Part shown: piece after piece, positions 2,301 through 16,663 of the stretch | How positions within the stretch are numbered: the first letter of the stretch is position 1 | Layout: each line of letters begins with the position of its first letter | Virus record (IMG/VR): IMGVR_UViG_3300050821_012662 | Span: 1-52,528 of that record | Reading direction: 5' to 3' (one strand) | DNA length: 52,528 nucleotides | Origin: a virus | Notes under the pieces: generated by a model | What the model saw: only the letters and a program-made list of their open reading frames with translations | What the model was told of the DNA's origin: nothing | Database searches by the model: none | Translations under genes and position numbers: made by a program

Positions 2301-2791
2301 TGCTTGGCTCTCCATCTGTTCAGTGTATCCCATTCTCCTAGATCGCGCGCGATGCTCTCAGCCGCCGCCATCGTGTCCTCGATCACGGGAATCGCGTACG
2401 TGTTTCCCATGCAGTGCTCCACGAGTCCAGTCTCCCACATCTCGAGGAGATCGCAGATCTTGAACTTCTTGAACTCCTTGTCGCGAAGCTCGGGGAGCGT
2501 CACGCCGATTCGCGTTCGGCCGATCGCCTCGGCGTGGTTCACGGCTTCGCGAAGCTGAGGCGCGAGATCCTTGGCGGAGAAGGGAACGTCGCCCGAGGAG
2601 AGCTCTCCGCTGTCGTGATGCAGACAGTAGTAGAGAACTTCGGCGCGCGGCAGGCCCCAGAGCTCGCAGTACAGAGTCGCGACTCGCGCGCTGTGCGCCG
2701 CCACGGTCTGCTCGCGAATCATCGGCCACGTGTGCCAGCGACGCACGCGACCCGCGATCTGCGGAGACGACATTATCTTGTCTCGAGTCAC
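2297..2791 (-). CDS. HD-domain phosphohydrolase (YfbR-like 5'-nucleotidase), 164 aa
   Basis: The GTG at 2791 has AGGAGG six bases upstream and a GTGA overlap with the thymidylate synthase stop. HSARVATL (about 33-40) and HHDSGELSSGDVP (about 58-70) give the H...HD pattern of HD metal-dependent phosphohydrolases, and the later CDLLEMWE supplies a further Asp. YfbR-type enzymes dephosphorylate deoxynucleoside monophosphates. Directly behind a dUMP-using enzyme it may reshape the dNMP pool, removing a competing nucleotide while a modified one is made. That role is inferred from position. Confidence 0.8.
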   Translation of the reverse strand: MTRDKIMSSPQIAGRVRRWHTWPMIREQTVAAHSARVATLYCELWGLPRAEVLYYCLHHDSGELSSGDVPFSAKDLAPQLREAVNHAEAIGRTRIGVTLPELRDKEFKKFKICDLLEMWETGLVEHCMGNTYAIPVIEDTMAAAESIARDLGEWDTLNRWRAKQ

Positions 2792-3945
2792 TTCTGCCTC
2801 CTCTGAAGCCACTCGACGCAGGCGAAGCGCCAGTCGGGCGTCTCGATCCTGCCCGCGAGCTCGAGAGCCGTTGTCGGATCTCCGCGCTTGTGATGCCAGT
2901 GCGCCAGCATCGCCCTCTCGAGAGTCCCGCGAAACCACGGATTCTCGTAGCGCGGCAACGGCGCGGTCCCCTCCTGAATCGCGTCGTACCACCCCACGAA
3001 GCGCCGCACGTCCTCGTCGACGGAGTCGGGGGCATCGAACATCGGCCTCACAATTAGGCCGAGCCCGTAGTATCGGTCGTTCTCCAGTGTCTGCCGCAGC
3101 GCCAGCGGCCCGTCGGCGTGCGTCACGTGCTCGAGAGCTCGCCTCTCGAGTCGCTCCATCTCCGCGACGTAGACGTGCGCGTTGTTGCTCACCTGATACA
3201 TGACGCCGACCTCGACGCCGATCCGCGCGGCCAGATACTCCAGCAGCACGCTGAACGAGAAACTGTTCGCTCCCATCCCTCCCCATATCATGTCGTTCGA
3301 GCGACAGCAGACCGTGAGATCGAGCCACGGCCCCTCGATGACCTCCTCGCCGTCGCGGCCGGCGCTTCTCTCGGGCGGCCGCACGCGCAGCATGATGATG
3401 TCGTTGCAGGGTCTATCCTTCCACTTTCCGAGCAGATCGTTGCACCCAGTGTCCTCGTACGACACGACGCGATCTCCTGGCACCGTGGACGGCCCGTGGT
3501 CCACCTCGCGCGTTCCCGGAAGCGAGCAGTCCCACATCTGTACGACAGCCTGCCGCGACGACGGATCACGTCTCAGGATGTTCACCACCGCGTCGAGCTG
3601 ATCGAACCCGAACGCGCTGCGCCATCGCCGCCCGTACGCTCCGTGGATCACGCCCCCCGGCTCGCCGTAGTTCTCGCCGAACTTTCTGACGAATCGCCCC
3701 AGGGGCGCGGCGTCGTCCCTGCCGGCCAGGAGCCAGATCGCCTCGTAGCCGTGAAAGAAGATGTTGGCGTCGCGAACGGGGGCGAACAGCACGCGCTCGG
3801 TCGGGCGACGCGTGACCGTGACGACCGGGCCGGGCGCCACGAGCACCGGGCCGGCGCGCGAGCTCTCGACCGAGCCGCTGTCCTGCAGATACTCGACTAT
3901 CGCAGGCAGAGCCCGAGCGGTGTTCCTGACGTCGATCACGTGCAT
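2788..3945 (-). CDS. Thymidylate synthase family protein, probable dUMP hydroxymethylase, 385 aa
   Basis: ATG at 3945 follows GGGAG with good spacing. The fold is recognisable from RPCNDIIMLRV (catalytic Cys of the TS PC motif, about residue 209), CRSNDMIWGGMGAN (the RSxD...N motif) and a later AHVY that matches the HxY dUMP-binding motif. The Asn after the RSND segment appears retained; Asn there is typical of uracil-specific enzymes, while dCMP hydroxymethylases carry Asp. At 385 aa it is longer than cellular ThyA (about 264). Beside a 5-hmdU kinase-like gene and aGPT-PPlase-like genes, the likely product is 5-hydroxymethyl-dUMP for incorporation into phage DNA; ordinary dTMP synthesis remains possible. 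Confidence 0.85.
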   Translation of the reverse strand: MHVIDVRNTARALPAIVEYLQDSGSVESSRAGPVLVAPGPVVTVTRRPTERVLFAPVRDANIFFHGYEAIWLLAGRDDAAPLGRFVRKFGENYGEPGGVIHGAYGRRWRSAFGFDQLDAVVNILRRDPSSRQAVVQMWDCSLPGTREVDHGPSTVPGDRVVSYEDTGCNDLLGKWKDRPCNDIIMLRVRPPERSAGRDGEEVIEGPWLDLTVCCRSNDMIWGGMGANSFSFSVLLEYLAARIGVEVGVMYQVSNNAHVYVAEMERLERRALEHVTHADGPLALRQTLENDRYYGLGLIVRPMFDAPDSVDEDVRRFVGWYDAIQEGTAPLPRYENPWFRGTLERAMLAHWHHKRGDPTTALELAGRIETPDWRFACVEWLQRRQK

Positions 3946-4407
3946 GACTTTCTCCCCATCTCGTACATCTCCTCCAGAAGCAGCGACACGACATCGCAGC
4001 AGAACTGCTCGTTGTACCAGTGATTCCGACCGCTCGGATGCGGTGTCATTCTCCAGATCAGTCCGTCCCGCCAGACCGGATGCAGCAGCCGGCGCGGCAG
4101 GCCCAGCGCCCTTCGCGGCTCCTCTCCGAGTACCAGCACCAGGCGTCCAGTGTGTGTGTCTCACGGACGAGGCGAAGACAAGCGCAGCTTTCTTCGCCTC
4201 GCTCGCGTCCCACACTCGCGCGCTCAGCAGGTTCCGTCTGTCGAACGCCGCGAGATACTCGTCCTCCGTCACGTCCGGCAGTCGGCGACGCAGCAGACCG
4301 AGCAGGCGAGCGCCGGTGCAGCCCGGAGGAGAGGGCCAGAGCGCGTGTCGCGGATCGCTCGACAAGGGATTGTTCATGCCGATTATGAGAGGACGCTGGT
4401 CACTCAC
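3936..4407 (-). pseudogene. Uracil-DNA glycosylase superfamily-like gene, frameshifted
   Basis: The GTG at 4407 overlaps the upstream stop (GTGA) and follows GGGAGG. The first frame reads LIIGMNNPLSSDPRHALWP at the N-terminus and stays coding to about 4160. The rest (LVLVLGEEPRRALGLP, then a TPHPSGRNHWYN motif) continues in the +1 frame to a TGA at 3936. The glycosylase-superfamily signature is thus split between frames: the Gly-Met-Asn-rich motif near the start and the HPSGRN motif near the end. The break falls on a (GT)5 run at 4150-4159; a sixth GT would restore one uninterrupted reading frame. It may be a real disruption, a contingency tract or an assembly error. Confidence 0.7.
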
Positions 4408-4859
4408 CTGAGCACCTCCCTCAGGTCCACCGACTCCGTCGGCCTCGGCCGCGCCTCCAGCGTCTCGAACCACGCCCGCACGTCCCGCTTCATCTCGTCG
4501 CACACCCCCGGGTCCTCCAGACACGCCGACAGCCATCGCGCCATGGCGTCGGCCTCGGGCGACAGGGCAGCCTCCTGATCGTCGGCGATGTCCTCGTCCT
4601 CAATTCTCGTCTGATGCGTCCTCCGCCCGCGTCGGAAGGTCACGCCGGCCGCGTGCCCCGCCACGTGCCGATCCGCGTGGCTGCTGCCCGTGTGCCTGCC
4701 GTACTGCCCGACGCAGGGAACTCCGGCCTCCGCCCCGCATGCTGGGCACCCGACCAGCGCCACGACGCGCGCCGTGCGGATCCAGCGCCCGTACTCGCCG
4801 GGCGCCGGCACGAACACGAAGTGGCCGGAGCGATCCTCGAAGGCGACGACGCGAGCCAT
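4404..4859 (-). CDS. Small zinc-finger-containing hypothetical protein, 151 aa
   Basis: ATG at 4859; the stop overlaps the glycosylase-like start. Residues about 35-75 contain GCPACGAEAGVPCV followed by a His/Arg-rich stretch (GRHTGSSHADRH). That spacing resembles the small Zn-binding domain found in many phage and actinobacterial DNA-associated proteins (CPxCGx4GxxC...H...H). The C-terminal half is acidic and helical. Binding to DNA or to a modified nucleotide is possible but not shown. Confidence 0.65.
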   Translation of the reverse strand: MARVVAFEDRSGHFVFVPAPGEYGRWIRTARVVALVGCPACGAEAGVPCVGQYGRHTGSSHADRHVAGHAAGVTFRRGRRTHQTRIEDEDIADDQEAALSPEADAMARWLSACLEDPGVCDEMKRDVRAWFETLEARPRPTESVDLREVLR

Positions 4860-5087
4860 CTAGTTCTTCTTCCTTCTCACGGCGGCCAGAAACGCCTTGT
4901 CGGGCGCCCTCCGATGCATCAGCATCTCGAAGCAGTCGTCGCACACCACGCTGCACTCCTCCGCGGGCACCGCGCCGAACAGCTCGGTCTTCTCCTCCAG
5001 AGCCTCCTCGTCGCTCCATCCCTTCTCGAAGACTCCGCAACAGACAGCGCACTCGTACTCGTTCTTCCTCAGAGCACTCCCAGCCAT
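4860..5087 (-). CDS. Conserved phage zinc-binding protein, 75 aa
   Basis: ATG at 5087 with GAGGGAG eight bases upstream; ends with TAG one base before the next gene. It carries two Cys pairs, ECAVCC near the N-terminus and VVCDDCFEML near the C-terminus, around FEKGWSDEEALEE. This arrangement is familiar in small phage proteins of unknown role. It overlaps the preceding gene by 19 bases. Confidence 0.7.
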   Translation of the reverse strand: MAGSALRKNEYECAVCCGVFEKGWSDEEALEEKTELFGAVPAEECSVVCDDCFEMLMHRRAPDKAFLAAVRRKKN

Positions 5088-5452
5088 CTCCCGATCTCCC
5101 TCGTCGCGTCTCCCGCGGACCGCACGCTCGCGCCCATCCACCTGCTTCTCTCGTCCATCAGCCGCACGCTTCTCACGTCCAGGCCGCGTTTGCTCATCAG
5201 CCGCTCCCTCCTGTCGTCGTCTGTCGGACACAGCACGCAGTCGGCGCCCCAGCCGTGATGCAGAAGAGCGCGGGAGTAGAGTTCCTGCGTCCGGAGAGTC
5301 ATGCCGGGGATCCAGGCGCGCCGATCTGCTGTTCCGCAGATCAGGGCGCGTTGACCTTCACCCTCGTACGCGACGGTGAGAGTCCAGTCGTACAGCGCCG
5401 CGACGGCGCGGGCGACGGAGAGCTGGCCCAGGCCGCGGATCAGGACGATCAC
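5069..5452 (-). CDS. Hypothetical protein, 127 aa
   Basis: The GTG at 5452 gives a GTGA overlap with the upstream gene and is preferred over the in-frame GTG at 5467. The N-terminus VIVLIRGLGQLSVARAVAAL looks like a first beta strand and helix of an alpha/beta fold, and DERSRWMGASV is near the C-terminus. It lies next to a nucleoside deoxyribosyltransferase-like gene. No family is recognised. Confidence 0.55.
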   Translation of the reverse strand: MIVLIRGLGQLSVARAVAALYDWTLTVAYEGEGQRALICGTADRRAWIPGMTLRTQELYSRALLHHGWGADCVLCPTDDDRRERLMSKRGLDVRSVRLMDERSRWMGASVRSAGDATREIGRWLGVL

Positions 5453-5853
5453 GGCGCCCTGTCCCACGACATCGCAGCGACGATGTCATCCCGTCTGTAG
5501 ACTCCCGCGTGCGCGATCCACGATCCGATCGGCTTCAGTGTTCTGCCCTCCAGGTGCACGCCCGGCAGACAGATGACGACAGGCTTCTTCATCCCCATCG
5601 CGATGCCACACTCGATCAGTGCGCCCTTCAGCGGAAAATCGCTCTCCTCCGCGTACAGCACGACCTTGGACGCCGCCGTTATCTCACCGACTATGCGATC
5701 CCAGAGCTCGGCGAAGTCTTCGGTCTCGCCCTCGCCCGCCTCGTCGATCCACGTCGAAACTATGTTCCATCCCTCGTTCCTGAGATCCCTCCACATCTTC
5801 GAGCGAGCTGATATACTCGCTCTCGACGCTACGTATATTGGCTTCCTATGCAT
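5449..5853 (-). CDS. Nucleoside 2-deoxyribosyltransferase-like protein, 134 aa
   Basis: ATG at 5853 with AGGAG eight bases upstream. IYVASRASISARSKMWRDL at the N-terminus, WIDEAGEG in the first third, SKVVLYAEESD in the middle and ECGIAMGMKKPVVI in the C-terminal half follow the order of motifs in small deoxyribosyltransferase/nucleosidase folds; the Glu of ECGIA is the likely catalytic residue. These enzymes exchange or remove bases on deoxynucleosides. Among nucleotide-remodelling genes it probably salvages or clears nucleosides. Confidence 0.7.
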   Translation of the reverse strand: MHRKPIYVASRASISARSKMWRDLRNEGWNIVSTWIDEAGEGETEDFAELWDRIVGEITAASKVVLYAEESDFPLKGALIECGIAMGMKKPVVICLPGVHLEGRTLKPIGSWIAHAGVYRRDDIVAAMSWDRAP

Positions 5854-5885
5854 GCTACTTTCTCCTCAAGCAAAATTCAGGACGA

Positions 5886-6086
5886 TCACGACTCTGTCTC
5901 CGCCTCGCCGACTCGTCGTATCTTCTCGATCCTGTCGAGGACGCTCTTTGCCTCGGCGACCGACGGCGCGTAGACGTCTATGTCGTCGAACTTGACGCGA
6001 CATCTCGGCTCGCGCTGAGTCTCTGCGACCCAGATCACAGTCGCGCAGGCCATGATCCCACAGATAAGAACCACGATCTCCATCAT
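5886..6086 (-). CDS. Small membrane protein, 66 aa
   Basis: Two consecutive ATG codons (6086 and 6083) follow GAGGAGGAG. The second has the better spacing, so the true start could be 6083. Residues 3-20 form one hydrophobic helix (EIVVLICGIMACATVIWVA); the rest is soluble with an acidic end. Probably an inner-membrane protein. Bases 6087-6178 upstream hold no gene I can support. Confidence 0.6.
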   Translation of the reverse strand: MMEIVVLICGIMACATVIWVAETQREPRCRVKFDDIDVYAPSVAEAKSVLDRIEKIRRVGEAETES

Positions 6087-6178
6087 CTCCTCCTCAGCAA
6101 TGTCACGTACCGCCACCCAGCGTGATTCACTCGTGATCAATCTACAGCGTCTGCGAGGCGAAGGCTACCACCGCAGTT

Positions 6179-7075
6179 TTAGCGTAACGTCGAGCGCGTC
6201 AGTATTCTCTCTATCGCCGCCCTCGCCGCCTCCCTGCCCACCAGATGCGCCGCCGTCTCGAGATACCCCACCTCCAGATCGTGCCGATAGGAGCAGAACC
6301 TCGGCCACGGCCCATCGGCGTAGCGCTCGCGCCACAGTCTCGTCGGATCGCCGTCGTTCTCCAGCGCCATCCTCAGGAAGTCGCCGCACCACTCCCCGGC
6401 TCTCCGCACCTCCTCAGAGCTCAGCGTGCCGGGAAAGTGTCTGAACTCGATGGTGTCCGTCTGCAGGAGCTGCCGAAGATTGACCGCGCACCGCGGACGT
6501 ATGGCCCAGAGCAGTCTGCCGGTGGGCACGTGGAGCACCTCGGCGTCGAAGAACTCGCGCGGCGTGCGCGCTCTCGTCTGCCTCCCGACGATCTCCTCCG
6601 GCATGATCTTCTGATGCGAGACCCTGCGGCGTGCGTATCTCTTTCTTGCCCCTCGGTACGCCTCGGCGTCCGGATACTCCTCGCGCGTGGGCTCCGGTAT
6701 CGGCTCGATGAGCGGCAACACCTCGGGCAGCCACCGCGCGCAGAACTGCTGAGCGCGCTTCAGTCCTGCGAGATTCTCGCGCAGACCCGGCGCGCGCACG
6801 TGCACGTGCAGATTGGATCTGTAGTTCACGGTGGTCTTCTCGTGACCCGAGCCGCGCAGAAACTCATCGAGCTGATCCGCGACGCCGCTCGGCGAGTCGG
6901 CCGGTCGCGCGAGCACCTCGCCCCCCAGGTGAAACAGCTCGCCGCGCGGATCAACCGCGACGCCGCAGGAGTTGACCATCGTCACGTCCCTGAGATCCAG
7001 GTCCCAGGCGCACGGTGCCCGCCTGTCCCAGTCGCTGAGCTCGAACTCGGCGCCGTAGGTCCACTGCGCCATCAT
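6179..7075 (-). CDS. Putative amidoligase-family protein, 298 aa
   Basis: ATG at 7075 gives an ATGA overlap with the kinase-like gene. The N-terminal WTYGAEFELSDW resembles the GvExEf start of the putative amidoligase family (glutamine synthetase-like fold). Further family-like marks are VNSCGVAVDPRGELFHLGGE (about 34-53), NLHVHVR (about 88-94) and IEFRHFPGT (about 213-221). Amidoligases join an amine to a carboxylate using ATP. As the last gene of the five-gene overlapping block, it could attach an amino compound to the base made by the upstream enzymes; a general phage amidoligase role is the alternative. Family call moderately sure, role inferred. Confidence 0.65.
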   Translation of the reverse strand: MMAQWTYGAEFELSDWDRRAPCAWDLDLRDVTMVNSCGVAVDPRGELFHLGGEVLARPADSPSGVADQLDEFLRGSGHEKTTVNYRSNLHVHVRAPGLRENLAGLKRAQQFCARWLPEVLPLIEPIPEPTREEYPDAEAYRGARKRYARRRVSHQKIMPEEIVGRQTRARTPREFFDAEVLHVPTGRLLWAIRPRCAVNLRQLLQTDTIEFRHFPGTLSSEEVRRAGEWCGDFLRMALENDGDPTRLWRERYADGPWPRFCSYRHDLEVGYLETAAHLVGREAARAAIERILTRSTLR

Positions 7076-7641
7076 ATATTTTTCAGCTCCCTCAGCATCG
7101 CTGGCAGCAGCTCCTCTCGCGACACGCGCCGCACGTCGGCCCCCGCCTCCCGCATTCTCCGCGCGTAGCTGTCGTGACTGCGCTGGTCGTTGGCCGTGTT
7201 CTTGGGTGTGCCCCTGCCGTAGACGCCGCGCGCCTCCTGTCGCTGCCGAATGGACGCGTAGCACTGCTCCAGCGGCGTAGTCAGAAGGAAGACGTGCAGC
7301 GCGCTCCCCACCTCTCTGTAGAGTGGCAGACCACGCACGAAGTTCCGCACGAGCAGACCCTCCAGCACCACGGAGCGCCCGCCGCGCCACTCTCTTCTCA
7401 GAATATCGTCTATGAGATCCATGCTGCTGATCGTGTCGCACCCCCCGGTCGGGTTCTCGTACGAGCCCAGCACGTAGATCTCTTCTGTCACTTCTGGCAC
7501 TCTCAGCACGTAGCCGATCGGCAGCCTGCGTCCCTCGACGTGCTGTCTCTCAGAGCTCGCGGCCATGCTCACGAGCGCGCGCACGGCGTGCGACTTGCCC
7601 GAGCCGGACGTGCCGCACACCTGAATGATCTGTCCCATCAT
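7072..7641 (-). CDS. P-loop kinase, probable 5-hydroxymethyl-dU DNA kinase, 189 aa
   Basis: The ATG at 7641 overlaps the upstream stop, and a second ATG at 7638 lies seven bases from AGGAGG. Walker A is GTSGSGKS (about 10-17). VLGSYENPTGGCDTI (about 57-71) is a phage HMUDK-like segment, VVLEGLLV (about 91-98) is the Walker B region and LLTTPLEQCYASIRQR follows. In hypermodifying phages such kinases phosphorylate 5-hydroxymethyluracil in DNA to activate it for substitution. Its place between an aGPT-PPlase-like gene and an amidoligase-like gene fits. A paralogue with the same GGCDTI segment lies at 16122-16663. Confidence 0.75.
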   Translation of the reverse strand: MMGQIIQVCGTSGSGKSHAVRALVSMAASSERQHVEGRRLPIGYVLRVPEVTEEIYVLGSYENPTGGCDTISSMDLIDDILRREWRGGRSVVLEGLLVRNFVRGLPLYREVGSALHVFLLTTPLEQCYASIRQRQEARGVYGRGTPKNTANDQRSHDSYARRMREAGADVRRVSREELLPAMLRELKNI

Positions 7642-8414
7642 CTCACCTCCTCTGGCGCCGCTCTCAGCAGCCTGTCCGCCGTCTCACCCCACCCAGTCAG
7701 CGCGCGCCGCACCTCGGTCACGTCCTTTCCGACGGCGTATCGCCCAGCGCGGTGGGACTTCCACTTGCACAGCACCGTCTCGACCTCCTGCGGTCCGCAG
7801 GCCCGGTCGAAACCGGGGGGAGCGCGTCGTCGTCCGAAGTACCGCAGGAGGTCGCGATAGTGGTCCTGAACGCCTCGGCCCTCGGTCTCCACGAGAAGGT
7901 CGAGCGTGGACCTCGGCTCCGCGTATATCAGTCCGACGTCCGCGGCGAACGTCACGCGCTGCCCCGCGCACCGCTCCAGCATGTCGGCCGCCTTGAAGGC
8001 GATCCACGGTCCGTGCAGCGGCCACTCTCTGACCGCGCTCATGACCTCGGCGTCTGTCCGCAGGGAGGACAGGCTCTCGACCCAGTGCTCGGGGCTCTCC
8101 CGAGCGAGCCAGTCGACCGTTCTGACGCAGACGGCTCCGCGAAAGTGACGCCGCTCTGCCGCGCGTGGCCACCGCTCGCCTCTCGGCGTCGGCGCCGCGT
8201 TCTCGGCCGCGACGCGCACGACTCGCCAGTAGTCGTCGCTCTCGTGCTCGCTGAGCCACGCCGCCGCGCCCAGATGATAGAAGCACCAGTACGCCGTCAG
8301 CAGGCGGCAGAGCTGTGGCCGACGCAGACGCGCGCCGTGTATGGCCACGTACACCGGGTCCAGATCTCTGGTTCTCAACAGCTCGTCACCGAAATCTCTT
8401 ATGCCCAGCGTCAC
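7638..8414 (-). CDS. Alpha-glutamyl/putrescinyl thymine pyrophosphorylase-like (aGPT-PPlase) protein, 258 aa
   Basis: The GTG at 8414 overlaps the FAD-enzyme stop (GTGA). LTAYWCFYHLGAAAWLSEHE (about 39-58), then WPRAAERRHFRG and HGPWIAFKAADMLER, match the DNA-glycosylase-like helical family described as aGPT-PPlase. Members have been shown to act as amino acid:DNA transferases, replacing the phosphorylated 5-hydroxymethyl group with an amino acid. Translationally coupled between the FAD enzyme and the kinase, it is the likely transferase of this pathway. The identity of the transferred amino acid cannot be read from the sequence. Confidence 0.7.
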   Translation of the reverse strand: MTLGIRDFGDELLRTRDLDPVYVAIHGARLRRPQLCRLLTAYWCFYHLGAAAWLSEHESDDYWRVVRVAAENAAPTPRGERWPRAAERRHFRGAVCVRTVDWLARESPEHWVESLSSLRTDAEVMSAVREWPLHGPWIAFKAADMLERCAGQRVTFAADVGLIYAEPRSTLDLLVETEGRGVQDHYRDLLRYFGRRRAPPGFDRACGPQEVETVLCKWKSHRAGRYAVGKDVTEVRRALTGWGETADRLLRAAPEEVR

Positions 8415-9223
8415 GACAGCACCTCCCTCGCGATTCTGCGCGCCGCCCAGGCGGCGGCGGCCGTTCCGTTCTTCGCGCCGCCCGTCGCGGCCCACACGCG
8501 CCCGCGTCTGCGCACCAGGCACGGCTCGCCACTGGTCTCAGCGTACGGTCTCGCGCCCAGAATGCTGATGGTCCTCTCGACCGCGCATCCGGTGACCGCC
8601 AGGCATCTCGCCAGCGAGGCTCTCGCTCTCTCGTCGGTAATTCTCTTGAGCGCCGAACCGTCCCCTGCCCACGATCTGCCGTCCAGCATGTCGAACGCCA
8701 CCACCTGTCGGTAGGGCGCCCAGACGCTGATCACGGCGCGTCCGATGGCTGGTCCCCTGTGCGCCCAGCCCCAGCGACTCTCCACGGTGCCGACCCACGG
8801 ACAGAGGCTCTGCGTCCACACGCCGGCCGCCACCACGACGCCTCTGCGCGCCCCGAGCGTCTCGCCGCTTCTCAGCCGCACTCCGTCGTCGAAGACGCTC
8901 TCGCAAACGCCTCTCGTCTGCGCCGCGCCGAGCACGGTGGCGGGCTCCACGCAGTGACAGGTCGCGTGCCTGCCCAGAGGCAGCGAGAACCGCACGTCGC
9001 GCACGCCGTACAGCTCGCTCAGCATCTCCAGCGCCTCGCTCAGGTCGCTGGTGGTCATGCTGCCCACCCAGCTCGGGCGGATGACACAGCCCGCCGCCGC
9101 CGAGCCCGCGCCCTCGCGGTCGTCCGACACGACCGTCGCGACTGCCCCCTCGCGCGCCAGCCACGCGGCCGCGATCTTGCCGAAGAGACCACCGCCCACG
9201 ACGATCACGTCGCTCGTCGTCAC
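8411..9223 (-). CDS. FAD-dependent oxidoreductase, glycine/D-amino-acid oxidase-like, 270 aa
   Basis: GTG at 9223, AGGAGG five bases upstream, and GTGA overlap with the methyltransferase gene. The N-terminal VIVVGGGLFGKIAAAWLAR (about 6-24) is the GxGxxG dinucleotide-binding motif of the DAO fold. RGVVVAAGVWTQSL in the middle and WAATGGAKNGTAAAAW near the C-terminus are the later FAD contacts. At 270 aa it is shorter than typical DAO enzymes (350-400). In phage hypermodification, flavin enzymes trim a glycine installed on thymidine to an aminomethyl group. That reaction is the best inference here from the neighbours. Confidence 0.75.
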   Translation of the reverse strand: MTTSDVIVVGGGLFGKIAAAWLAREGAVATVVSDDREGAGSAAAGCVIRPSWVGSMTTSDLSEALEMLSELYGVRDVRFSLPLGRHATCHCVEPATVLGAAQTRGVCESVFDDGVRLRSGETLGARRGVVVAAGVWTQSLCPWVGTVESRWGWAHRGPAIGRAVISVWAPYRQVVAFDMLDGRSWAGDGSALKRITDERARASLARCLAVTGCAVERTISILGARPYAETSGEPCLVRRRGRVWAATGGAKNGTAAAAWAARRIAREVLS

Positions 9224-9789
9224 GTCTTCCTCCTCAGGCAGATCACGCGCCACCTGAGCACGGGCACCTTCTCGGCCACGCGCCAGTCCGCGGACGCGAC
9301 TGCTCTCGCGAACCTTTTCTCGTCGTGCACGGCGGTCGTGGCGCCCAGCACGTACTCCGGCCCCAGCCTGATCGTCAGCACGACCCTGCTCCTGGCGACG
9401 CGGCAGCACTCCAGCAGCGCCCGCGTCATGTTCTCCTCGCTCATCAGGTTCAGCAGGCGCACGCACACGACCGAGTCGTGCGACTTGCTCGCGTGCTCCA
9501 GCGATGTCGCGTCGCCGACCGAGAGAGTAGTTTTGTCGCCCCCTCGCACTCTCCTTCTGGCCTCCGCGAGCATGTGCTCGGAGATGTCCACGCCGGTCAC
9601 TGCGAGCCCAAGAGATCGGTACAGACCGAGAAATCTCCCAGTGCCCACGGGCACGTCCAGCACGCTGCCCCGCGCGTCGCGCAGCATCCCAGCGACGACC
9701 TCGTTCTCTCTCAACCACCGCCGACGAGACTCGCGCGTCGCGTCGTACGAGCGAGCGGCGGACCTGCCGTATCTCTGACTCATCGTCAC
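9220..9789 (-). CDS. Class I SAM-dependent methyltransferase, 189 aa
   Basis: GTG at 9789 (an ATG follows at 9783). Motif I is LDVPVGTGRFLGLY, with VTGVDISEHMLAEA as the acidic strand 2 motif and VGDATSLEH and DSVVCVRLLNLMSEE as later cofactor motifs. It is a small-molecule-type Rossmann methyltransferase, without the DPPY or PC motifs of common DNA methyltransferases. It is the first gene of the overlapping block 9789-6179, so it may methylate an amino group on the modified base. The substrate is unknown. Confidence 0.75.
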   Translation of the reverse strand: MTMSQRYGRSAARSYDATRESRRRWLRENEVVAGMLRDARGSVLDVPVGTGRFLGLYRSLGLAVTGVDISEHMLAEARRRVRGGDKTTLSVGDATSLEHASKSHDSVVCVRLLNLMSEENMTRALLECCRVARSRVVLTIRLGPEYVLGATTAVHDEKRFARAVASADWRVAEKVPVLRWRVICLRRKT

Positions 9790-10968: not shown

Positions 10969-10975
10969 GTCGTCA

Positions 10976-11074
10976 TTAGTGAGAAGTCGCCATGACCATG
11001 TAGCATCCATGCATAGAAAGCCCGACGAATATGGCCAACGCTAACATCCTGATCGCGCTTGCTATCTCTGGCAT
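10976..11074 (-). CDS. Very small membrane protein, 32 aa
   Basis: ATG at 11074, preceded by AAGG at seven bases, ending in TAA at 10976. The sequence MLALAIFVGLSMHGCYMVMA is one hydrophobic segment. It overlaps the upstream 23-codon frame by 13 bases. Function unknown; length makes the call tentative. Confidence 0.4.
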   Translation of the reverse strand: MPEIASAIRMLALAIFVGLSMHGCYMVMATSH

Positions 11075-11133
11075 GTAATCGCCTTCTGAATGTACCACTC
11101 ATGGCCGACGCGAACGCGGATCTGGTCGGTCAT
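11062..11133 (-). CDS. Possible small peptide gene, 23 aa
   Basis: ATG at 11133 overlaps the stop of the 11130-12032 gene (ATGA) and reads MTDQIRVRVGHEWYIQKAI before a TAG. Coupling is its only support. It could equally be a chance frame between real genes. Confidence 0.35.
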   Translation of the reverse strand: MTDQIRVRVGHEWYIQKAITCQR

Positions 11134-12032
11134 CGGTAGACTCCTCGGGGACGGCCCTCGCCGTTCTGCACTCTCATCATCTTGTCGACCTCGCAACTGA
11201 GATGCTCGATGTCGCGCATCTCCAGCGCGGGCCAGTCTCTCTTGTTCTTCTGCGGCCAGTTCTTCTCGTCCCCCGACATCGCGAGCAGCTCCCGCATCTC
11301 GCCGACGAGCTCGTCCTGACTCAGCGACTTGTCGCGCTTGTCCCTGCCGGCTATCCGGTTCAGCCCCCTGCGAGCCCCCGGCCCCGCGTGCGCCCACGTC
11401 ATGATGTCCGGCGCGCGATCCAGCAGGCTCGTCCATCGCAGATCGGAGACGATCTCGTAGGAGTGGAAGCTGCCCATCCAGGGCTGCGCTCGGAACCAGA
11501 CATGCGCCTCCTGCAACGAGTACGGCGTCTTCTGCATCATGCACTCCGCAACGTCCCTCCACCCACTCTTCCTGTGAAAATTCTGCAGTACGCTCATCAC
11601 TCCATCCAGCTTGGATTTTCCCTGCGGACTAGAAATGATGTAGGCACCCGTAACAAAGGGACCTCGCTTTCCAACGAGCGCCAAGATGTTTCTCTTCAAC
11701 TCACTCGCCATCTCGGTCCTGTAGAACAGGTCGAACCCAGTTCGCCCACCGAGGTCTGGCTGACAAAACATCGCCTCGCCGACCTCGACCCGGTTGAGCA
11801 TGCGAAAGACCACCGTGGCCAGAAGCACCTCGGGTCGGTCGCGCATCGGGTCGCGCACGTGCTCCCGGAACCAGATTGTCGTGCGGTCGTCCTCGCGGCG
11901 AACGCAGGTGAAGCGATATCGCTGGAGAATCGGGTCGCGAGTCCACTCCTCGCGCGGTAGGCCGGCCCGTCGGCGCAGGAGAATATTTTGTCGCTCGCGG
12001 GCGTAGGCGAAGAAGGTGGAGGCGTGTTTCAC
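11130..12032 (-). CDS. aGPT-PPlase / 5-hmdU DNA kinase helical-domain family protein, 300 aa
   Basis: GTG at 12032 overlaps the upstream stop (GTGA). The N-terminal half has the family hallmark: FAYARERQNILLRRRAG (about 8-24), EWTRDPILQRYRFTCVRRED (about 29-48) and the Arg-rich segment after it. No Walker A motif is present, so the nucleotide-kinase half found in some fused members is absent. In the hypermodification literature this helical domain is associated with 5-hmdU DNA kinases and thymine pyrophosphorylase-like amino acid:DNA transferases. With the protein at 7638-8414 it gives this phage two such enzymes. Confidence 0.7.
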   Translation of the reverse strand: MKHASTFFAYARERQNILLRRRAGLPREEWTRDPILQRYRFTCVRREDDRTTIWFREHVRDPMRDRPEVLLATVVFRMLNRVEVGEAMFCQPDLGGRTGFDLFYRTEMASELKRNILALVGKRGPFVTGAYIISSPQGKSKLDGVMSVLQNFHRKSGWRDVAECMMQKTPYSLQEAHVWFRAQPWMGSFHSYEIVSDLRWTSLLDRAPDIMTWAHAGPGARRGLNRIAGRDKRDKSLSQDELVGEMRELLAMSGDEKNWPQKNKRDWPALEMRDIEHLSCEVDKMMRVQNGEGRPRGVYR

Positions 12033-12241: not shown

Positions 12242-12270
12242 GATGTGATCTCCCGTATCTACAGAATGCG

Positions 12271-12307
12271 CCCGACCGAGGACGAAGTAAAGTCGCCCTC
12301 GGTCGGG
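12271..12307 (-). promoter_or_regulatory. Perfect 11-bp hairpin enclosing the ACTTTACTTCG element
   Basis: The plus-strand arms CCCGACCGAGG (12271-12281) and CCTCGGTCGGG (12297-12307) are perfectly complementary. The 15-base loop contains CGAAGTAAAGT (12283-12293), that is ACTTTACTTCG on the coding strand. No U-tract follows, so a plain terminator is unlikely. It lies in the only gap of this stretch, about 40 bases before the ATG at 12241. Likely a promoter, operator or mRNA-processing/leader element. Confidence 0.55.
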
Positions 12308-12325
12308 ACGGAGCGATCCCATCGC

Positions 12326-12684
12326 TCAAGACGAGACCCTATCGTGCGACGGGTCACCATGTGGGTCGGAGTGCTGAGCTCCAGTCTTGGGGTCCTCCGG
12401 GCTGATGTTCGCCGCGGACGGCGCGGCGGCCGACTCGAACACGCTCCTGAGCGTGCGAATTCTTCTGAGAGCAACCTCGATCTCGCGCTCCGCGATGGCG
12501 AGCGTGCTGCCGACGTTCTCGATCCTCGCGTACTCCAGCGGCACCTCGATCGTCGTCCATCGGTGCTCGCATCCGATCCAGACGCAGCGGCGCCGTCGCC
12601 TGATTCCGACGCTCGTATGGCGCGCGAGTCGACGACCTCGTCGCCTCGGCGACCGCACGCGGGGCACTGGCCCGACTAGCTCAT
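12326..12684 (-). pseudogene. NrdR-like zinc-ribbon protein gene, nonsense- and frameshift-disrupted
   Basis: The expected ATG (12684) makes an ATGA overlap with the membrane-protein gene, but its third codon is TAG. After it the frame reads GQCPACGRRGDEVVDSRAI, then the protein continues in another frame as GIRRRRRCVWIGCEHRWTTI. Together these give the CxxC...RRRRRC..CxHRWTT pattern of NrdR/Ogr-type zinc ribbons. One extra C beside 12606-12607 would rejoin the frames. Re-initiation at GTG 12667 would give an intact 113-residue protein lacking the first Cys pair. Probably decayed, or misread in the assembly. Confidence 0.55.
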
Positions 12685-12845
12685 GGTCTCGCCTCCGTCA
12701 TCGCGTATGCGCCCGCTAGCATCGCGAGAATGATCCATTTGATAGGCAGCGGAGTGATCCATCCTTCGGGATCCCGCGTGTGCCAGACGATCAAACCAAC
12801 CCAGAGAACGATCAGCACCGCGACGACGACGTGCAGCGATCTCAT
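12681..12845 (-). CDS. Small membrane protein, 54 aa
   Basis: ATG at 12845 overlaps the exonuclease stop (ATGA). Two hydrophobic stretches, HVVVAVLIVLWVGLIVW (about 5-21) and IKWIILAMLAGAYAM (about 35-49), flank a polar turn (HTRDPEGW). This is a two-span inner-membrane hairpin of unknown role. Confidence 0.65.
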   Translation of the reverse strand: MRSLHVVVAVLIVLWVGLIVWHTRDPEGWITPLPIKWIILAMLAGAYAMTEARP

Positions 12846-13612
12846 GCTCGCTTCTCCTTCTTGTCCAACCAGTGCTGAGCCGTGTATTTCTCATCATCCC
12901 CGAAATCACGCTTCAGGATCCACCTCATCATCCCCGGGTCCAGGTCCTCCCAGAGCTTCCCCCGATGCTGCCCGAATCGCACGGTGCGCAGCAGCACCGG
13001 CAGCGTCGTCAGCTCCAGCAGCCGCTCCACGGTCTCGGTCTCGAGCATTTGCTCCAGAATCGCGGCGGTCGTCAGTGCGTCGGCGAGCGCTCTGTGCGGA
13101 GCCAGTCCGCACAGAGGCACGTCTACTCCTAAGTAGTACCGCAGCACCTGATTGCTGTGGCTTGGAGCATCAGGAAAAAGATGCAAGGCTACGCGCCATG
13201 TGCATATTGTCCTTGGCGGCAGCAGATCGGGATGCACTCCAGACTGCACGAGCATCCGCCGATCGAAACCGGCGTTGTGGGCGACGAGCACGACGTCGTC
13301 GACCGCGGGGACATTCGCGACCTCACTCTCGCCGGGATGCCCGAGCTCAGGCAGACCTCTTCGCAGCAGAAGCGCCGCCACGCTCGGCGCGTCTCTCAGC
13401 TCGTCGTTGCCTATGTGGTGCGTCGCCCGCGCCTGGACCGACACCGGGCAGCTCGGCCTGATCAGCGTGCTCCACTGCGGCAGCGCCCGCCACGACAGAT
13501 CCCCCGGCGTCAGACTCACGATCGCGAGCTCCACCACCTGGTCCTGCTCCGTCAGTCCCGTCGTCTCCACGTCCACGACCGCCAGCCGCCATCTTATTCT
13601 CTTCGCTGACAC
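12842..13612 (-). CDS. DnaQ/ExoX-like 3'-5' exonuclease, 256 aa
   Basis: GTG at 13612 with GGGAG seven bases upstream. AVVDVETTGLTEQD (about 11-24) is Exo I, VLVAHNAGFDRRML (about 107-120) is Exo II and HRALADALTTA (about 178-188) is Exo III, a full DEDDh set. The C-terminus FGQHRGKLWEDLDPGMMRWI resembles the C-terminal motif of exodeoxyribonuclease X-type proteins. It probably trims single-stranded 3' ends during replication or repair. Confidence 0.85.
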   Translation of the reverse strand: MSAKRIRWRLAVVDVETTGLTEQDQVVELAIVSLTPGDLSWRALPQWSTLIRPSCPVSVQARATHHIGNDELRDAPSVAALLLRRGLPELGHPGESEVANVPAVDDVVLVAHNAGFDRRMLVQSGVHPDLLPPRTICTWRVALHLFPDAPSHSNQVLRYYLGVDVPLCGLAPHRALADALTTAAILEQMLETETVERLLELTTLPVLLRTVRFGQHRGKLWEDLDPGMMRWILKRDFGDDEKYTAQHWLDKKEKRA

Positions 13613-13757
13613 TTCTGATCTCCCTCTCGATCTCCGCGAGCGAGTCGGCCCACGCCGACAGATCGCTCCTTCTCGCCGATCGCCTCTCGAGCGTGAGAGA
13701 GATCTGGCCGGCCACTCTCGCCAGAGTCCTGTGCCATCGCTCCAGCTTGTCCCTCAC
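13347..13757 (-). CDS. Coiled-coil-like hypothetical protein; 3' extent uncertain
   Basis: GTG at 13757 overlaps the stop of the HNH-like gene (GTGA), so a gene starts here. The first 55 codons (RDKLERWHRTLARVAGQISL onward) are helical and charged and lie outside other genes. The frame then stays open for over 80 codons inside the exonuclease gene, where it looks like a shadow (Gly/Arg/Ala-rich). Either the overlap is real or a small indel hides an earlier stop; a TAA in another frame falls near 13595. Confidence 0.4.
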   Translation of the reverse strand: MRDKLERWHRTLARVAGQISLTLERRSARRSDLSAWADSLAEIEREIRSVSEENKMAAGGRGRGDDGTDGAGPGGGARDRESDAGGSVVAGAAAVEHADQAELPGVGPGAGDAPHRQRRAERRAERGGASAAKRSA

Positions 13758-14231
13758 GAACGATAGAATCCATTTCGATTCCTCTCTATGAACTCATCGT
13801 GAACCGCCGCTGCCTCTGCGACAAAGGTATATGTTCCAAGATCAAGGCACACGCCAGACAGTGTCTTTGCTCGCGCTCTCCATCTATAGTGATTTCTGGT
13901 GACACCTACGCGACCGCTCTCATTTTCTTTTGTGGCACGCATATTCAGCGCGTTCAACCTTCTAGTCGCCAATCGAAGCGTTCGACTCGTCTCCGTCCTT
14001 ATGATCTATCTCCTTCCAACCAGGGTCTTTTCCAGTCTGCAGTTTCCAGATAACTCGAGACGCGATGTACTTCACGTTCTCTATTCTTACGATTATACGC
14101 GCACCGTTCTTTCTAGAGTTGGCGCCAACAATCTTCCCCCTCTTTCTCAGGACACCTGTCGCAGGATCGTACGACAGAATCTTTCTCAAGATCTTCATCG
14201 AAGGAAGAACTAGCCGTTCACCTACACCCAT
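13754..14231 (-). pseudogene. HNH homing-endonuclease-like gene with AP2-like domain, disrupted
   Basis: ATG at 14231 overlaps the helicase 3' end. The first frame reads ILSYDPATGVLRKRGKI and a core HNH motif EIDHKDGDESNA before a TAG at 13962. The next frame continues at once with LRLATRRLNALNMRATKENE, then an AP2-like segment (GVTRNHYRWRAR, VAEAAAVHDEF). In intact relatives DHxxGxxxxN is followed by an N-L-R-L-A-T segment in one frame. Here four or five codons seem to be lost around CTTCGATTGG (13968-13977), consistent with deletion between direct repeats. Likely an inactivated free-standing homing endonuclease. Confidence 0.65.
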
Positions 14232-15754
14232 GGATATCCTCGTCCATTAGTTGACTCAACGATCGTCAACTTCTCCCTGGCTCTTGTCACGCCGACATAG
14301 AAAACGCGGGCCTCGTCCTCCGGATTCTCACCCATCTCTCTCCACGTGCGCCCCGCCATCTCCTTCATCAGGATCACGTGATGCGCCTCGCCGCCCTTGC
14401 TGCCGTGGATCGTCGACACGATCACGCGCGGTCTGCCCCCCGGTCTCTCGCCTCGCTTCAGCGCGGCCCGCAGATATCCCACGTCGTCTCTCGGCAGGCG
14501 GTCCAGCGCGTCGTACCACGGATCGTTCCGCAGCAGCCCGTGATCCGCTCTCAGCTCCTCCGCGGAGATCTCGCGCTCGTCGTCCTCGCCGCTCAGCGTC
14601 TTGTGTCCTCGGGACACTCCCAGTCCCGAGGACATCTGCTCGTATATGAATCGCGCCTCAGCGATCCGTATCTTTCCGCCCTTTCGCAGTCGCTCCCAGT
14701 CCCGTATGACGGAGAGCGTGCGATCCGAGATGCTCGGATGCCCGTGCCTCTCGTAGATCACGCCGCGCCGTCGCAGCTCGGGCTCGACCTGCTCGCGCAG
14801 GACGTAGGTGTTGCGCGCGAGAACGAGAACCGGAGGGTTCTTGTCCTCGTCTCCCCACGGATCATCGGCCTCGACCTCGTCGATCTTCGCGGCGCGCTCT
14901 ACAGTCCCGACAGAGCTCTGTCGGGGCTCCCACTTCTTCTCGCGGCGATACTTGACCTCGCGGATAACGCGACCAGCGATCCGCTGCACGACCGGGGGGA
15001 CGCGCCAGGACTGGCCGAGAACGCGGACGTCGCCCTCCATCGATATCAGATGATTGACGTCGGCGCCAGCCCACGCGTAGATCCCCTGGTCGTCGTCTCC
15101 GGCCACGGCGAATCTTCTGCATCCCTCGGCGAGACGCGCGATCACCTGATGCTGAAGCCAGGAGAGGTCCTGATCCTCGTCTACGAGAAGAACCTCCAGC
15201 CCCAGCCTGATCCCCGATCTCACGAACTCGCTAAGCATGTCCGTGAAGTCCATCAGCCCGTGCGCCGCCTTGAACACGCGGAGGCACCGCGCTATGCGGC
15301 TCACCTCGCTCCAGTTCAGACGGTCGTCTCCCTCGTCGTAGAGCTCGCGGAGATCTCTGCCTCTTATTCGCGCGAGATTCTCCATGAACATGGCGCGGTC
15401 TCCTAGGTCGAAGCCGGACAGCGTGCCGTCCTCGCTGAACTTCCCAGAGATTCGCACGCCCGCGTAGTGCGCGAACCGCTGGAGGCGCTGGCCCTCGAGA
15501 ACGTCGCCGCGCTGGAGGCCGAGCTGGCGGTACGCCAAAGAGTGAATCGTGCTGAAGAACGGAAAGTCCTTGCGCGTCATGGAGAACTTCTGGCAGGCGC
15601 GGTCCATCGCCTCGGTCGCGGCTTTGCGAGTAAAACTGAAAAACCCAATGCGATCCGGCGCGGTGCCGCGCTCCAGCTCCTCCTCGACTATGCCGATCAG
15701 GGCGGTAGTCTTTCCGCAGCCAGGTGGCCCGAGTATGATCTCCGGGACCGTCAC
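14222..15754 (-). CDS. SF1 UvrD/Rep-type DNA helicase, 510 aa
   Basis: The GTG at 15754 overlaps the Tat-leader gene stop (GTGA). Walker A is ILGPPGCGKTTAL (about 7-19), followed by FFSFTRKAATEAM (motif Ia) and STIHSLAYRQLG. Motif II is LLVDEDQDLSWLQ, motif III is VAGDDDQGIYAWAGA, and the C-terminal motifs are VIVSTIHGSKGGEAHHVIL and FYVGVTRAREKL. It is complete but at 510 aa lacks the large insertions of cellular UvrD. It probably unwinds DNA at the phage fork or in recombination. Confidence 0.9.
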   Translation of the reverse strand: MTVPEIILGPPGCGKTTALIGIVEEELERGTAPDRIGFFSFTRKAATEAMDRACQKFSMTRKDFPFFSTIHSLAYRQLGLQRGDVLEGQRLQRFAHYAGVRISGKFSEDGTLSGFDLGDRAMFMENLARIRGRDLRELYDEGDDRLNWSEVSRIARCLRVFKAAHGLMDFTDMLSEFVRSGIRLGLEVLLVDEDQDLSWLQHQVIARLAEGCRRFAVAGDDDQGIYAWAGADVNHLISMEGDVRVLGQSWRVPPVVQRIAGRVIREVKYRREKKWEPRQSSVGTVERAAKIDEVEADDPWGDEDKNPPVLVLARNTYVLREQVEPELRRRGVIYERHGHPSISDRTLSVIRDWERLRKGGKIRIAEARFIYEQMSSGLGVSRGHKTLSGEDDEREISAEELRADHGLLRNDPWYDALDRLPRDDVGYLRAALKRGERPGGRPRVIVSTIHGSKGGEAHHVILMKEMAGRTWREMGENPEDEARVFYVGVTRAREKLTIVESTNGRGYPWV

Positions 15755-16125
15755 GATTCTGCCCTGATGACTATCGTCCCCGGCTCCGGTTCTAAAACTA
15801 GAACAGATCCTGCGACGATGTCCCTCATTTCCGCCTCTACGTGCACGAGCACGCCCATTGGTCTCACCTGATCGATACAGTCGTCGATCATCTCCGAGAC
15901 CTGCTCACGCTCTGTCTCGCTGAGTGGCCCCATCGCTACGACCTGCCTCGCTATCTCGGATATCGTGTCGATCAGCGTCTGCGCCGTGCACAGCCAGCCC
16001 TTCGGGCTGATCATGATCGGCGGTAGCACACGGGCGACTGGCGACGGCACCGCGATCGCAGGACACGCCGTTGCAACGATCGTTGCACCGAGACCTGCGA
16101 GAAATCGTCTCCTGTCTGCAGTCAT
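15751..16125 (-). CDS. Exported protein with Tat-like signal peptide, 124 aa
   Basis: ATG at 16125 overlaps the upstream stop (ATGA). The N-terminus MTADRRRFLAGLGATIVATA is a twin-arginine-type leader (RRRFLAG then a mild hydrophobic stretch), with a likely cleavage near PAIA. The mature part is helical (TLIDTISEIARQVV, ETEREQVSEMIDDCI) and ends in beta-like EPGTIVIRAES. Tat export of a phage early protein is unusual. Function unknown. Confidence 0.7.
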   Translation of the reverse strand: MTADRRRFLAGLGATIVATACPAIAVPSPVARVLPPIMISPKGWLCTAQTLIDTISEIARQVVAMGPLSETEREQVSEMIDDCIDQVRPMGVLVHVEAEMRDIVAGSVLVLEPEPGTIVIRAES

Positions 16126-16663
16126 GACCTTTGCTCCAACCCAAGCACCGCGCGCGGCCGCCCCGGCGCCGTCTCCCTTGTCACCTTCTCACACGGAATC
16201 CCGAGGAAGCGCATCTTCGCGCAGAACGACTGACTCGTTCTGTAGTGATCGCCCGTCTTCTTCTCGGAGAGCTCGCGCTCGTCGCCTCGCCGCGCTCGCC
16301 GCTCGCGCACGCCCGCGAGGCAGACGTCCAGAGGCGTCACGAGCTGAAGCACGTGCACCGGCAGATCGCGCGCCAGCAGCGGCACGCGCCTCATGCTCAT
16401 GAGAAAGATGCCCTCCATGATCACGTGAAGTCCCTCGGCGGCTCTCTCTCGGGCTGTCCCTCTAGGTCACGTATCGTGTCGCAACCGCCGCACTCCCCGT
16501 CGGCGTACGACCCGAGCGCGAGAATTCGCCCACCAAGAAGATGCCCGATCGGGACGCGGCGACCAGGAACGAACTGCGGCTCGTCGCTCAGCTCGTCGAA
16601 GAGCCCGCGCACGATCGTCGACTTGCCCGAGCCGTAGGTTCCAGCGATCTGAACTATGGCCAC
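16122..16663 (-). pseudogene. Second P-loop 5-hmdU DNA kinase-like gene, frameshifted
   Basis: GTG at 16663 follows GGAGG by seven bases. The first frame has Walker A GTYGSGKST, then GRRVPIGHLLGG and ALGSYADGECGGCDTI, colinear with the kinase at 7072-7641. It then stops at 16421. The rest (VIMEGIFLMSMRRVP, LQLVTPLDVCLAGVRERR) continues in a second frame to 16122. The break lies at the CTCTCTCT run 16442-16449; removing one CT unit restores a single frame of about 180 codons. Whether the enzyme is really inactive depends on confirming that run. Confidence 0.7.

Follow-up and report, generated by a model that had tools for sequence, protein, structure and literature searches.

The locus analysed here raises the question of which DNA base its modification genes would produce. 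The window, by which we mean the whole stretch of 52,528 nucleotides that was analysed (an IMG/VR-type record), comes from an uncultured virus and carries on its minus strand a PaMx11-type thymidine-hypermodification cassette, which is interrupted by unrelated genes (Table 1). A preliminary description of this DNA had listed a set of such genes, all enclosed by its span 2788-16663, and the HD-domain 5'-nucleotidase is an additional member. We hold with moderate confidence that four known steps followed by one new amide tailoring step give the best account of the cassette.

Table 1. Features of the cassette, with positions in the window
Feature	Position	Strand	Evidence and remarks
HD-domain YfbR-like 5'-deoxynucleotidase	2297..2773	-	YfbR-like E 4e-8; phrog_6047 E 3e-23; start 2773
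TS-family dUMP hydroxymethylase (makes 5-hmdUMP, predicted)	2788..3945	-	phrog_5131 E 7e-80; Pfam Thymidylat_synt E 8e-16
phrog_12275 family gene, upstream of TS	3936..4377	-	phrog_12275 matches; split over two frames
Nucleoside 2-deoxyribosyltransferase/DUF4406-like	5449..5853	-	Nuc_deoxyrib_tr E 0.015 only; between AMID and TS
AMID, predicted ATP-dependent carboxylate-amine ligase on modified base	6179..7072	-	Amidoligase_2, fold, conserved residues
P-loop GGCDTI protein (KIN), 5-hmdU DNA kinase P-loop partner, like PaMx11 gp49	7072..7641	-	AAA_33 E 2.5e-7
Amino acid:DNA transferase (ADDT), predicted glycinyltransferase on 5-phosphomethyl-dU in DNA	7638..8414	-	PF18724 E 1e-11
Flavin-dependent lyase (DAO fold), predicted Nalpha-GlyT to 5-aminomethyl-dU	8411..9223	-	PDB 8z2o/8z79
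Class I SAM methyltransferase (MTase)	9220..9789	-	Methyltransf_25 E 2e-16
5-hmdU DNA kinase helical-domain protein, like PaMx11 gp50	11130..12032	-	PF18723 (HMUDK_hel) E 6e-41; phrog_2396 E 2e-54
Second P-loop (GGCDTI) kinase gene, frameshifted	16122..16663	-	Halves 16421-16663 and 16122-16424

Predicted enzymes of the aminomethyl-dU route

The proteins of the preliminary description are real and far from chance, with profile matches for the TS, both helical-domain proteins, the P-loop protein, the FAD enzyme and the methyltransferase; for the helical-domain and TS families that it had named, the searches returned PF18723, PF18724, Thymidylat_synt and phrog_5131. The TS shares its catalytic Cys180 and its dUMP-type Asn227 with PaMx11 gp51 and with five other cassette members. 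The TS gene starts with the ATG at 3945, and the long frame 2788-4536 was rejected as a single protein. The HD nucleotidase matches the PaMx11 HD protein and lies downstream of the TS, the same position as PaMx11 gp52. Upstream of the TS, the phrog_12275 gene has its N-terminal part in the TS frame and its C-terminal part ('TPHPSGRNHWYN') in the adjacent frame, and relatives of it are unbroken in three other loci (L059, L020 and L063). Judged by eye from its sequence, the protein appears to resemble uracil-DNA glycosylase; a Pfam search with it gave no match. Membership of the DUF4406-like gene in the cassette is uncertain, and a DUF4406 protein is also encoded close to the TS of Rhizobium phage RHph_TM26.

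The P-loop partner KIN belongs to a family found in nearly all related cassettes, and its homolog in a Rhizobium phage matches HMUDK_HMUD1 (E 5e-12). Two P-loop proteins with a GGCDTI segment had been described; the one at 7072-7641 is intact, whereas 16421-16663 proved to be the N-terminal part of a frame-broken gene, the two halves of which match the cassette kinase with phmmer (E 3e-11 and 1e-9). ADDT matches PDB 8z2m ('Glycinyltransferase', E 1.8e-51), and the flavin lyase (hereafter DAO) matches PDB 8z2o/8z79 ('Flavin-dependent lyase', E 1.8e-45) over residues 4-268, aligns with PaMx11 gp47 at 42% identity and carries the FAD motif GGGLFG. A single FAD protein at 8411-9718 was rejected, as this frame runs over the methyltransferase gene and the real start is at 9223. 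As the preliminary description had noted, radical SAM is absent, with no PF04055 (Radical_SAM) match at E <= 1 anywhere in the record; the check for a PLP gene used an HMM of the PALP-type enzyme from radical-SAM cassettes. The homology of ADDT and the flavoenzyme to proteins of solved structure, a glycinyltransferase and a flavin-dependent lyase, together with the absence of radical SAM, bears out the earlier proposal of a PaMx11-type aminomethyl-dU route, and 5-aminomethyl-dU is, by known chemistry, the intermediate to be expected from these sequences. No member of the GNAT family was found in the window's cassette, which has an amidoligase (AMID) instead, and the cassette is therefore a variant of the PaMx11-type system.

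The genes MTase-DAO-ADDT-KIN follow one another with successive 4-nt stop/start overlaps, the ADDT GTG start overlapping the DAO stop, and AMID begins at the stop of KIN; the five genes are therefore translationally coupled. A decayed or unexpressed cassette, which would leave DNA with 5-hmdU or thymine only, we regard as very improbable. Frame breaks in the second kinase and in the phrog_12275 gene would fit such decay, but every catalytic gene on the main route is intact, with GC3 in the coding-type range of 0.79-0.87, and a frame break seen in a single metagenomic contig may be due to sequencing error.

The amidoligase and its gene neighbourhood

The AMID of the window, searched alone against Pfam Amidoligase_2, gave E 8e-4 and 19.7 bits, under the 22-bit cut-off, and 18 of 22 members of its family match the same profile, some above the cut-off. 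In the family alignment the GxExE motif, Glu52, Arg194, Glu209 and Arg211 are invariant. The AlphaFold (AF2) model has a pLDDT of 96.5, and all 50 Foldseek matches listed for it belong to the GS/GCL/Dop superfamily (YbdK, GS, GshA, GmaS, Dop), with YbdK at the top (E 8e-4, probability 0.99) and low TM-scores of 0.3-0.44. Profile-profile comparison (hhalign) gave no significant match to E. coli YbdK or GshA (probability about 1% or less), and the AMID profile found nothing meaningful among PDB sequences. Given the family matches, the invariant residues, the confident model and the Foldseek result, we rejected chance as the source of the amidoligase similarity, and the predicted membership of the GS/GCL-like amidoligase superfamily is clear.

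In 63 of 71 non-redundant AMID loci, and in 40 of the 46 among them without DAO, AMID lies no more than 5 kb from an ADDT-type gene, on siphovirus-like and T4-like contigs alike, compared with a detectable ADDT in 96 of 50,697 deposited phages. An LMW-phosphatase-like partner is present in 59 of the 71 loci and missing from the window. AMID itself occurs in only 2 of the 50,697 deposited phages and is frequent in metagenomic ones; culture-based nucleoside surveys would therefore have missed it. The isolated phage Simon (PQ683277) has ADDT, DAO and AMID together with an LMW-phosphatase-like gene, the kinase pair and a TS. The 'unfamiliar combination' of the preliminary description is accordingly unfamiliar against cultured phages and not among metagenomic phages, where DAO with an amidoligase is common. 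It is distinctly unlikely, in our judgement, that the pathway ends at 5-aminomethyl-dU and that AMID and the methyltransferase are chance companions of the cassette with protein or metabolite substrates, for instance in host takeover: phage Amidoligase_2 proteins are generally without an assigned substrate, and Vibrio phage 2.275.O has a distant AMID homolog beside 7-deazaguanine genes but no such cassette in the surrounding 7 kb, yet chance travel fails to explain the ADDT linkage across both siphovirus-like and T4-like loci.

The genes with which AMID alternates may hint at what it acts on. Of 49 DAO loci, 24 have AMID, 12 the PaMx11-type GNAT, 13 neither and none both (Fisher p 7.6e-4, a value that ignores the relatedness of the loci). 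On the DAO tree the AMID and GNAT labels are interleaved, AMID requiring 11 changes, and few pairs of independent branches are both supported and informative for the alternation. In two loci (L021 and L032) AMID adjoins a different GNAT. AMID is also found in metagenomic cassettes of the radical-SAM and PLP type (L061, L063, L072, L093 and L159), and the product of such a cassette in M6 is an amine. The amidoligase family recurs, is linked to ADDT and alternates with the acetyltransferase, and this speaks for the further amidation that the preliminary description had inferred.

A different order of events is conceivable, in which AMID acts earlier, activating the GlyT carboxylate and adding an amine or ammonia to give a glycinamide- or peptide-like base, with the lyase working on part of the bases or in another branch. 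Many loci have AMID with ADDT and without DAO, such as L062 and T4-like loci, and the AMID acceptor may therefore be something other than an aminomethyl group. In 34 of the 71 loci AMID has a class II glutamine amidotransferase no more than 5 kb away, which could supply the ammonia, and CmoY turns a carboxylate on DNA into an amide (PMC12783734). Against an early role, AMID accompanies in 25 of the 71 loci the flavin lyase, which removes that very carboxylate, it alternates in DAO loci with an amine acetyltransferase, and no DAO locus of the set has an amidotransferase within 5 kb of AMID. We consider such an early action rather unlikely.

A proposed pathway with amide tailoring

The TS would make 5-hydroxymethyl-dUMP, which would then be polymerised into DNA, where its hydroxymethyl group would be phosphorylated by the helical-domain and P-loop proteins. 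ADDT would swap the phosphate for glycine to give Nalpha-GlyT, with its 5-carboxymethylaminomethyl group, and the flavin lyase would strip two glycine carbons, leaving 5-aminomethyl-dU. These four steps are predicted from homology to characterised proteins. In the fifth, the GS/GCL-like AMID would use ATP to link the carboxylate of an amino acid, most likely the gamma-carboxylate of glutamate, to the primary amine, a step that would replace the acetylation of PaMx11. We infer this amide-forming step from the fold, the conserved residues and the gene linkage; AMID probably places an amino acid, perhaps glutamate, on the exposed amine, and this points to an undescribed DNA base. Beyond this virus, we tentatively suggest a widespread undescribed branch, in which a GS-like amidoligase amide-links an amino acid to 5-aminomethyl (or aminoethyl) uracil in phage DNA.

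The methyltransferase may add to this. Its gene overlaps that of the flavin lyase by 4 nt (GTGA stop/start, order MTase-oxidase) and has a GC3 of 0.86, similar to neighbouring genes, and its closest PDB relative is the phospholipid N-methyltransferase 8ys9 (E 1.7e-8); a single-sequence structure model reached a pLDDT of 40. It may be an N-methyltransferase of the aminomethyl group or of the added group, so that the amide branch may be combined with N-methylation in this virus. The overlap and the amine N-methyltransferase as closest relative also favour a final base that is methylated aminomethyl-dU (deoxy mnm5U), made by the lyase and then the methyltransferase as in MnmC, the amidoligase acting elsewhere. 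The chemistry would be that of cmnm5U to nm5U to mnm5U by MnmC, or by MnmM, a separate methyltransferase for nm5U to mnm5U in Gram-positives (PMC9976899), and methylated 5-aminomethyluracil is already listed as a natural phage base (PMC11550810). This outcome is nonetheless unlikely, as Pfam, NCBIfam and PDB searches placed the enzyme among Methyltransf_25/UbiE-type relatives and outside the MnmC and MnmM families, no homolog was found near any cassette in about 90 related records, it had no match in deposited phages and, by pattern, none in viral contigs, and its relatives on plasmids are generic small-molecule methyltransferases.

If tailoring by AMID after the lyase is correct, phage DNA would carry gamma-glutamyl-type side chains, with a predicted [M+H]+ of 387.151 for gamma-glutamyl-5-NmdU and 401.167 with a methyl group. 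This reading thus supplies exact masses to seek and one isolate, phage Simon, in which to seek them. The tailoring of hypermodified thymidine is reportedly the work of radical SAM enzymes, PLP enzymes, flavin lyases and acetyltransferases (so Lee et al. 2022 are said to have found). An amide ligase would introduce a kind of bond new to thymidine bases, with a route to peptide-like groups on viral DNA, and such tailoring bears on phage evasion of restriction.

Comparison with known systems

The steps to 5-aminomethyl-dU are already known, and what is new is the proposed tailoring by the amidoligase. PaMx11 (gp46-gp52, Nalpha-GlyT/5-NmdU) has homologs of its ADDT, lyase, P-loop kinase, helical kinase, TS and HD nucleotidase all in the window, and in both the TS-HD pair lies near a DNA polymerase. 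The gene order is rearranged, with the window's helical protein set apart by about 1.3 kb, and the PaMx11 lyase is followed by a GNAT acetyltransferase, in place of which the window has both an amidoligase and a methyltransferase. With M6 and YuA, in which radical SAM and PLP enzymes give 5-aminoethyl-dU, the window shares TS, kinase and ADDT (37% identity to YuA gp10); these phages use a radical SAM enzyme that the window lacks. In tRNA, MnmEG with MnmC or MnmM places the same substituents on uracil C5, namely a glycine-derived group, its FAD-dependent removal and SAM-dependent methylation, but on a tRNA substrate, and the window's methyltransferase and lyase are outside these sequence families, so the analogy is functional only.

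Among ligases, YbdK, GshA, GmaS, glutamine synthetase and Dop share with AMID the predicted fold and the pattern of GxExE, Glu and Glu-x-Arg; AMID differs from YbdK and GshA in its lack of detectable sequence homology to them and in its linkage to DNA-modification genes. The closest precedent for amide ligation of a DNA base is the CmoX/CmoY system of Synechococcus phage S-B43, which makes the glycine amide of 5-carboxymethylcytosine (PMC12783734), with an ATP-dependent ligase forming an amide on a hypermodified phage pyrimidine. There the base is cytosine rather than thymidine and the ligase is asparagine-synthetase-like (AMP-forming) rather than glutamine-synthetase-like, and, if our reading of AMID is right, the roles of amine and carboxylate are reversed between the two.

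Cassette layout and the probable route to 5-aminomethyl-dU

The window, a virus record of the IMG/VR type, has a GC content of 64% over its 52,528 bases. Its thymidine-modification genes are encoded on the minus strand, from 2.3 to 16.7 kb. The cassette has no DNA-level relative among 50,697 deposited phages, and our evidence base for it is one contig of an uncultured virus. Four-base stop/start overlaps are found at three junctions (methyltransferase-lyase, lyase-ADDT and ADDT-kinase, ADDT being the amino acid:DNA transferase), and the amidoligase start coincides with the kinase stop, making these five genes translationally coupled. All of the coupled genes have a codon-position composition typical of coding DNA.

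Features of the cassette and of the left end of the window
Feature	Position	Strand	Remark
Helical kinase protein	12032-11130	-	most upstream of the cassette series
Exonuclease-like gene	10841-10296	-	between helical kinase protein and methyltransferase
Methyltransferase	9789-9220	-	
Flavin lyase	9223-8411	-	
Amino acid:DNA transferase (ADDT)	8414-7638	-	
P-loop kinase partner	7641-7072	-	
Amidoligase	7072-6179	-	
Deoxyribosyltransferase-like gene	5853-5449	-	between amidoligase and phrog_12275 gene
phrog_12275 gene	4377-3936	-	directly upstream of TS; split over two frames
TS	3945-2788	-	
HD nucleotidase	2773-2297	-	most downstream of the cassette series
DNA polymerase/3'-5' exonuclease-like gene, start only	2-406		left end of window; identified by eye

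Judging from sequence, the window very probably encodes a route to 5-aminomethyl-dU (5-NmdU), since the ADDT matches the solved 'Glycinyltransferase' (PDB 8z2m, E 1.8e-51), the DAO-fold protein matches the solved 'Flavin-dependent lyase' (PDB 8z2o, E 1.8e-45), the catalytic Cys is conserved in the TS along with the dUMP-type Asn, the 5-hmdU kinase is represented by its two halves, and no radical SAM was found in the record. According to the title of Wen et al. 2024 (cited in PMC11946847) and the PDB names, the glycinyltransferase gives Nalpha-GlyT, from which the lyase then yields 5-aminomethyl-dU. Taken by itself, this route is already known.

The class I methyltransferase (189 residues) shows by eye no DNA-methyltransferase catalytic motifs; its relatives are generic small-molecule methyltransferases, with a phosphatidylethanolamine N-methyltransferase as best PDB match, and it was in no other lyase or amidoligase cassette that we found. 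Methylated 5-aminomethyluracil is listed among natural phage bases, with no specific source given (PMC11550810), so such a product may not be new.

Beside the intact cassette kinase, a second P-loop (GGCDTI) kinase gene (16122-16663, minus strand) is split by a frameshift; this break and that in the phrog_12275 gene may be sequencing errors. Two or three such kinases also occur in cassettes L019, L041, L047 and L048. The phrog_12275 gene, uracil-DNA-glycosylase-like by eye and with an HPSGRN motif, has intact homologs in other hypermodification cassettes (L059, L063, L142, L144), and its protein may read or process the modified base.

The amidoligase and its neighbours across phages

The amidoligase is a genuine family member. 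Pfam Amidoligase_2 matches the window protein alone at E 8e-4 only; homologs that adjoin flavin lyases elsewhere can be aligned with it from end to end (24-46% identity), with GxExE, Glu52, Arg194, Glu209 and Arg211 invariant, and 18 of 22 homologs match Amidoligase_2. An AlphaFold model built from 41 sequences was confident (mean pLDDT 96.5), and Foldseek against the PDB placed YbdK first (E 8e-4, prob 0.99), followed by glutamine synthetases, Dop, gamma-glutamylcysteine synthetase and the gamma-glutamylmethylamide synthetase GmaS. The 50 matches listed all belong to this superfamily, though with low TM-scores, and comparing its profile directly with those of E. coli YbdK and GshA gave no significant result. 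In this superfamily the GxExE, Glu and Glu-x-Arg residues bind metal and ATP, and the enzymes use the gamma-carboxylate of glutamate as acyl donor.

A search of IMG/VR with an amidoligase profile gave 146 relatives, 80 of them retained, but among deposited phages it found only two. Phage Simon (PQ683277) carries a complete lyase-amidoligase cassette; its record, from sewage, is unannotated and labelled 'unverified'. Vibrio phage 2.275.O has no such cassette within 7 kb of its distant homolog (332034-333146), which adjoins 7-deazaguanine (QueF/queuosine) genes, not thymidine genes, a hint that a different base may undergo amide tailoring there.

An ADDT-type gene lies within 5 kb of the amidoligase in 63 of 71 non-redundant loci, including 40 of the 46 that have no lyase; divergent T4-like ADDTs were confirmed by Pfam, and as a rough yardstick, 96 of the 50,697 deposited phages have a detectable ADDT. 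The lyase, present in 25 of the 71, was itself used to find part of them, and locus counts vary with contig size and HMM thresholds. A low-molecular-weight-phosphatase-like gene (PF01451, E 4e-19, C-x5-R kept; loci L059-L133, e.g. L017:10118-10582, L120:8972-9403) accompanies the amidoligase in 59 of the 71, mostly directly downstream, and is absent from the window. A class II glutamine amidotransferase (GATase II) lies nearby in T4-like contigs (34/71 loci). L130, L120, L105, L094 and related T4-like contigs carry a compact module with no flavin lyase (GATase II, amidoligase, LMW phosphatase, ADDT, P-loop kinase), for which we found no description and which is nearly absent from isolates.

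The amidoligase also occurs in radical-SAM+PLP cassettes (L061, L063, L072, L093, L159), the M6 product of which, 5-aminoethyl-dU, is also a primary amine. L061 encodes in addition a short-chain dehydrogenase-like protein (8783-9529), and in two loci (L066:8740-10026, L070:8854-10050) a SPASM-type radical SAM protein sits between amidoligase and lyase or ADDT, where further tailoring chemistry is possible. On the simplest reading, the amidoligase is a tailoring enzyme that acts generally on amino-acid-derived thymine bases and in lyase cassettes would acylate the exposed amine; the resulting base is a prediction.

Amidoligase and acetyltransferase in lyase loci

Searching with a lyase profile yielded 49 loci in IMG/VR as well as one contig of a bacterial MAG. 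With duplicate contigs dropped and the window and deposited phages counted in, the non-redundant set also numbers 49: amidoligase is present in 24, a PaMx11-type acetyltransferase in 12, neither in 13 and both in none. This exclusion gave a Fisher p of 7.6e-4 over the 41 lyase loci with ADDT and HEL (helical kinase protein) or TS, a test that ignores relatedness of loci. Amidoligase and acetyltransferase labels are interleaved on the lyase tree and the amidoligase requires 11 changes on the best tree, so the two were probably exchanged repeatedly; four changes are forced by well-supported branches, and an independent-pair test had too few supported pairs. GNAT proteins that the PaMx11 acetyltransferase profile does not match are encoded after divergent amidoligases in two of the lyase cassettes (L021:9111-9641, L032:9680-10210), so the exclusion is limited to the PaMx11-type acetyltransferase.

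Relation to known pathways

One precedent exists for joining an amide to a phage base: CmoY, which acts on carboxymethylcytosine (PMC12783734) and is a ligase unrelated to the window amidoligase. The tight methyltransferase-lyase coupling recalls how methyltransferase and oxidase are arranged in MnmC, and nm5U methylation is also carried out by a separate enzyme, MnmM, on tRNA (PMC9976899), but the window methyltransferase belongs to neither family. The DNA polymerase-like gene start at the left end places TS and HD close to the polymerase, an arrangement shared with PaMx11. Up to 5-NmdU, each step places the window in the PaMx11-type pathway, from which it differs at the tailoring step.
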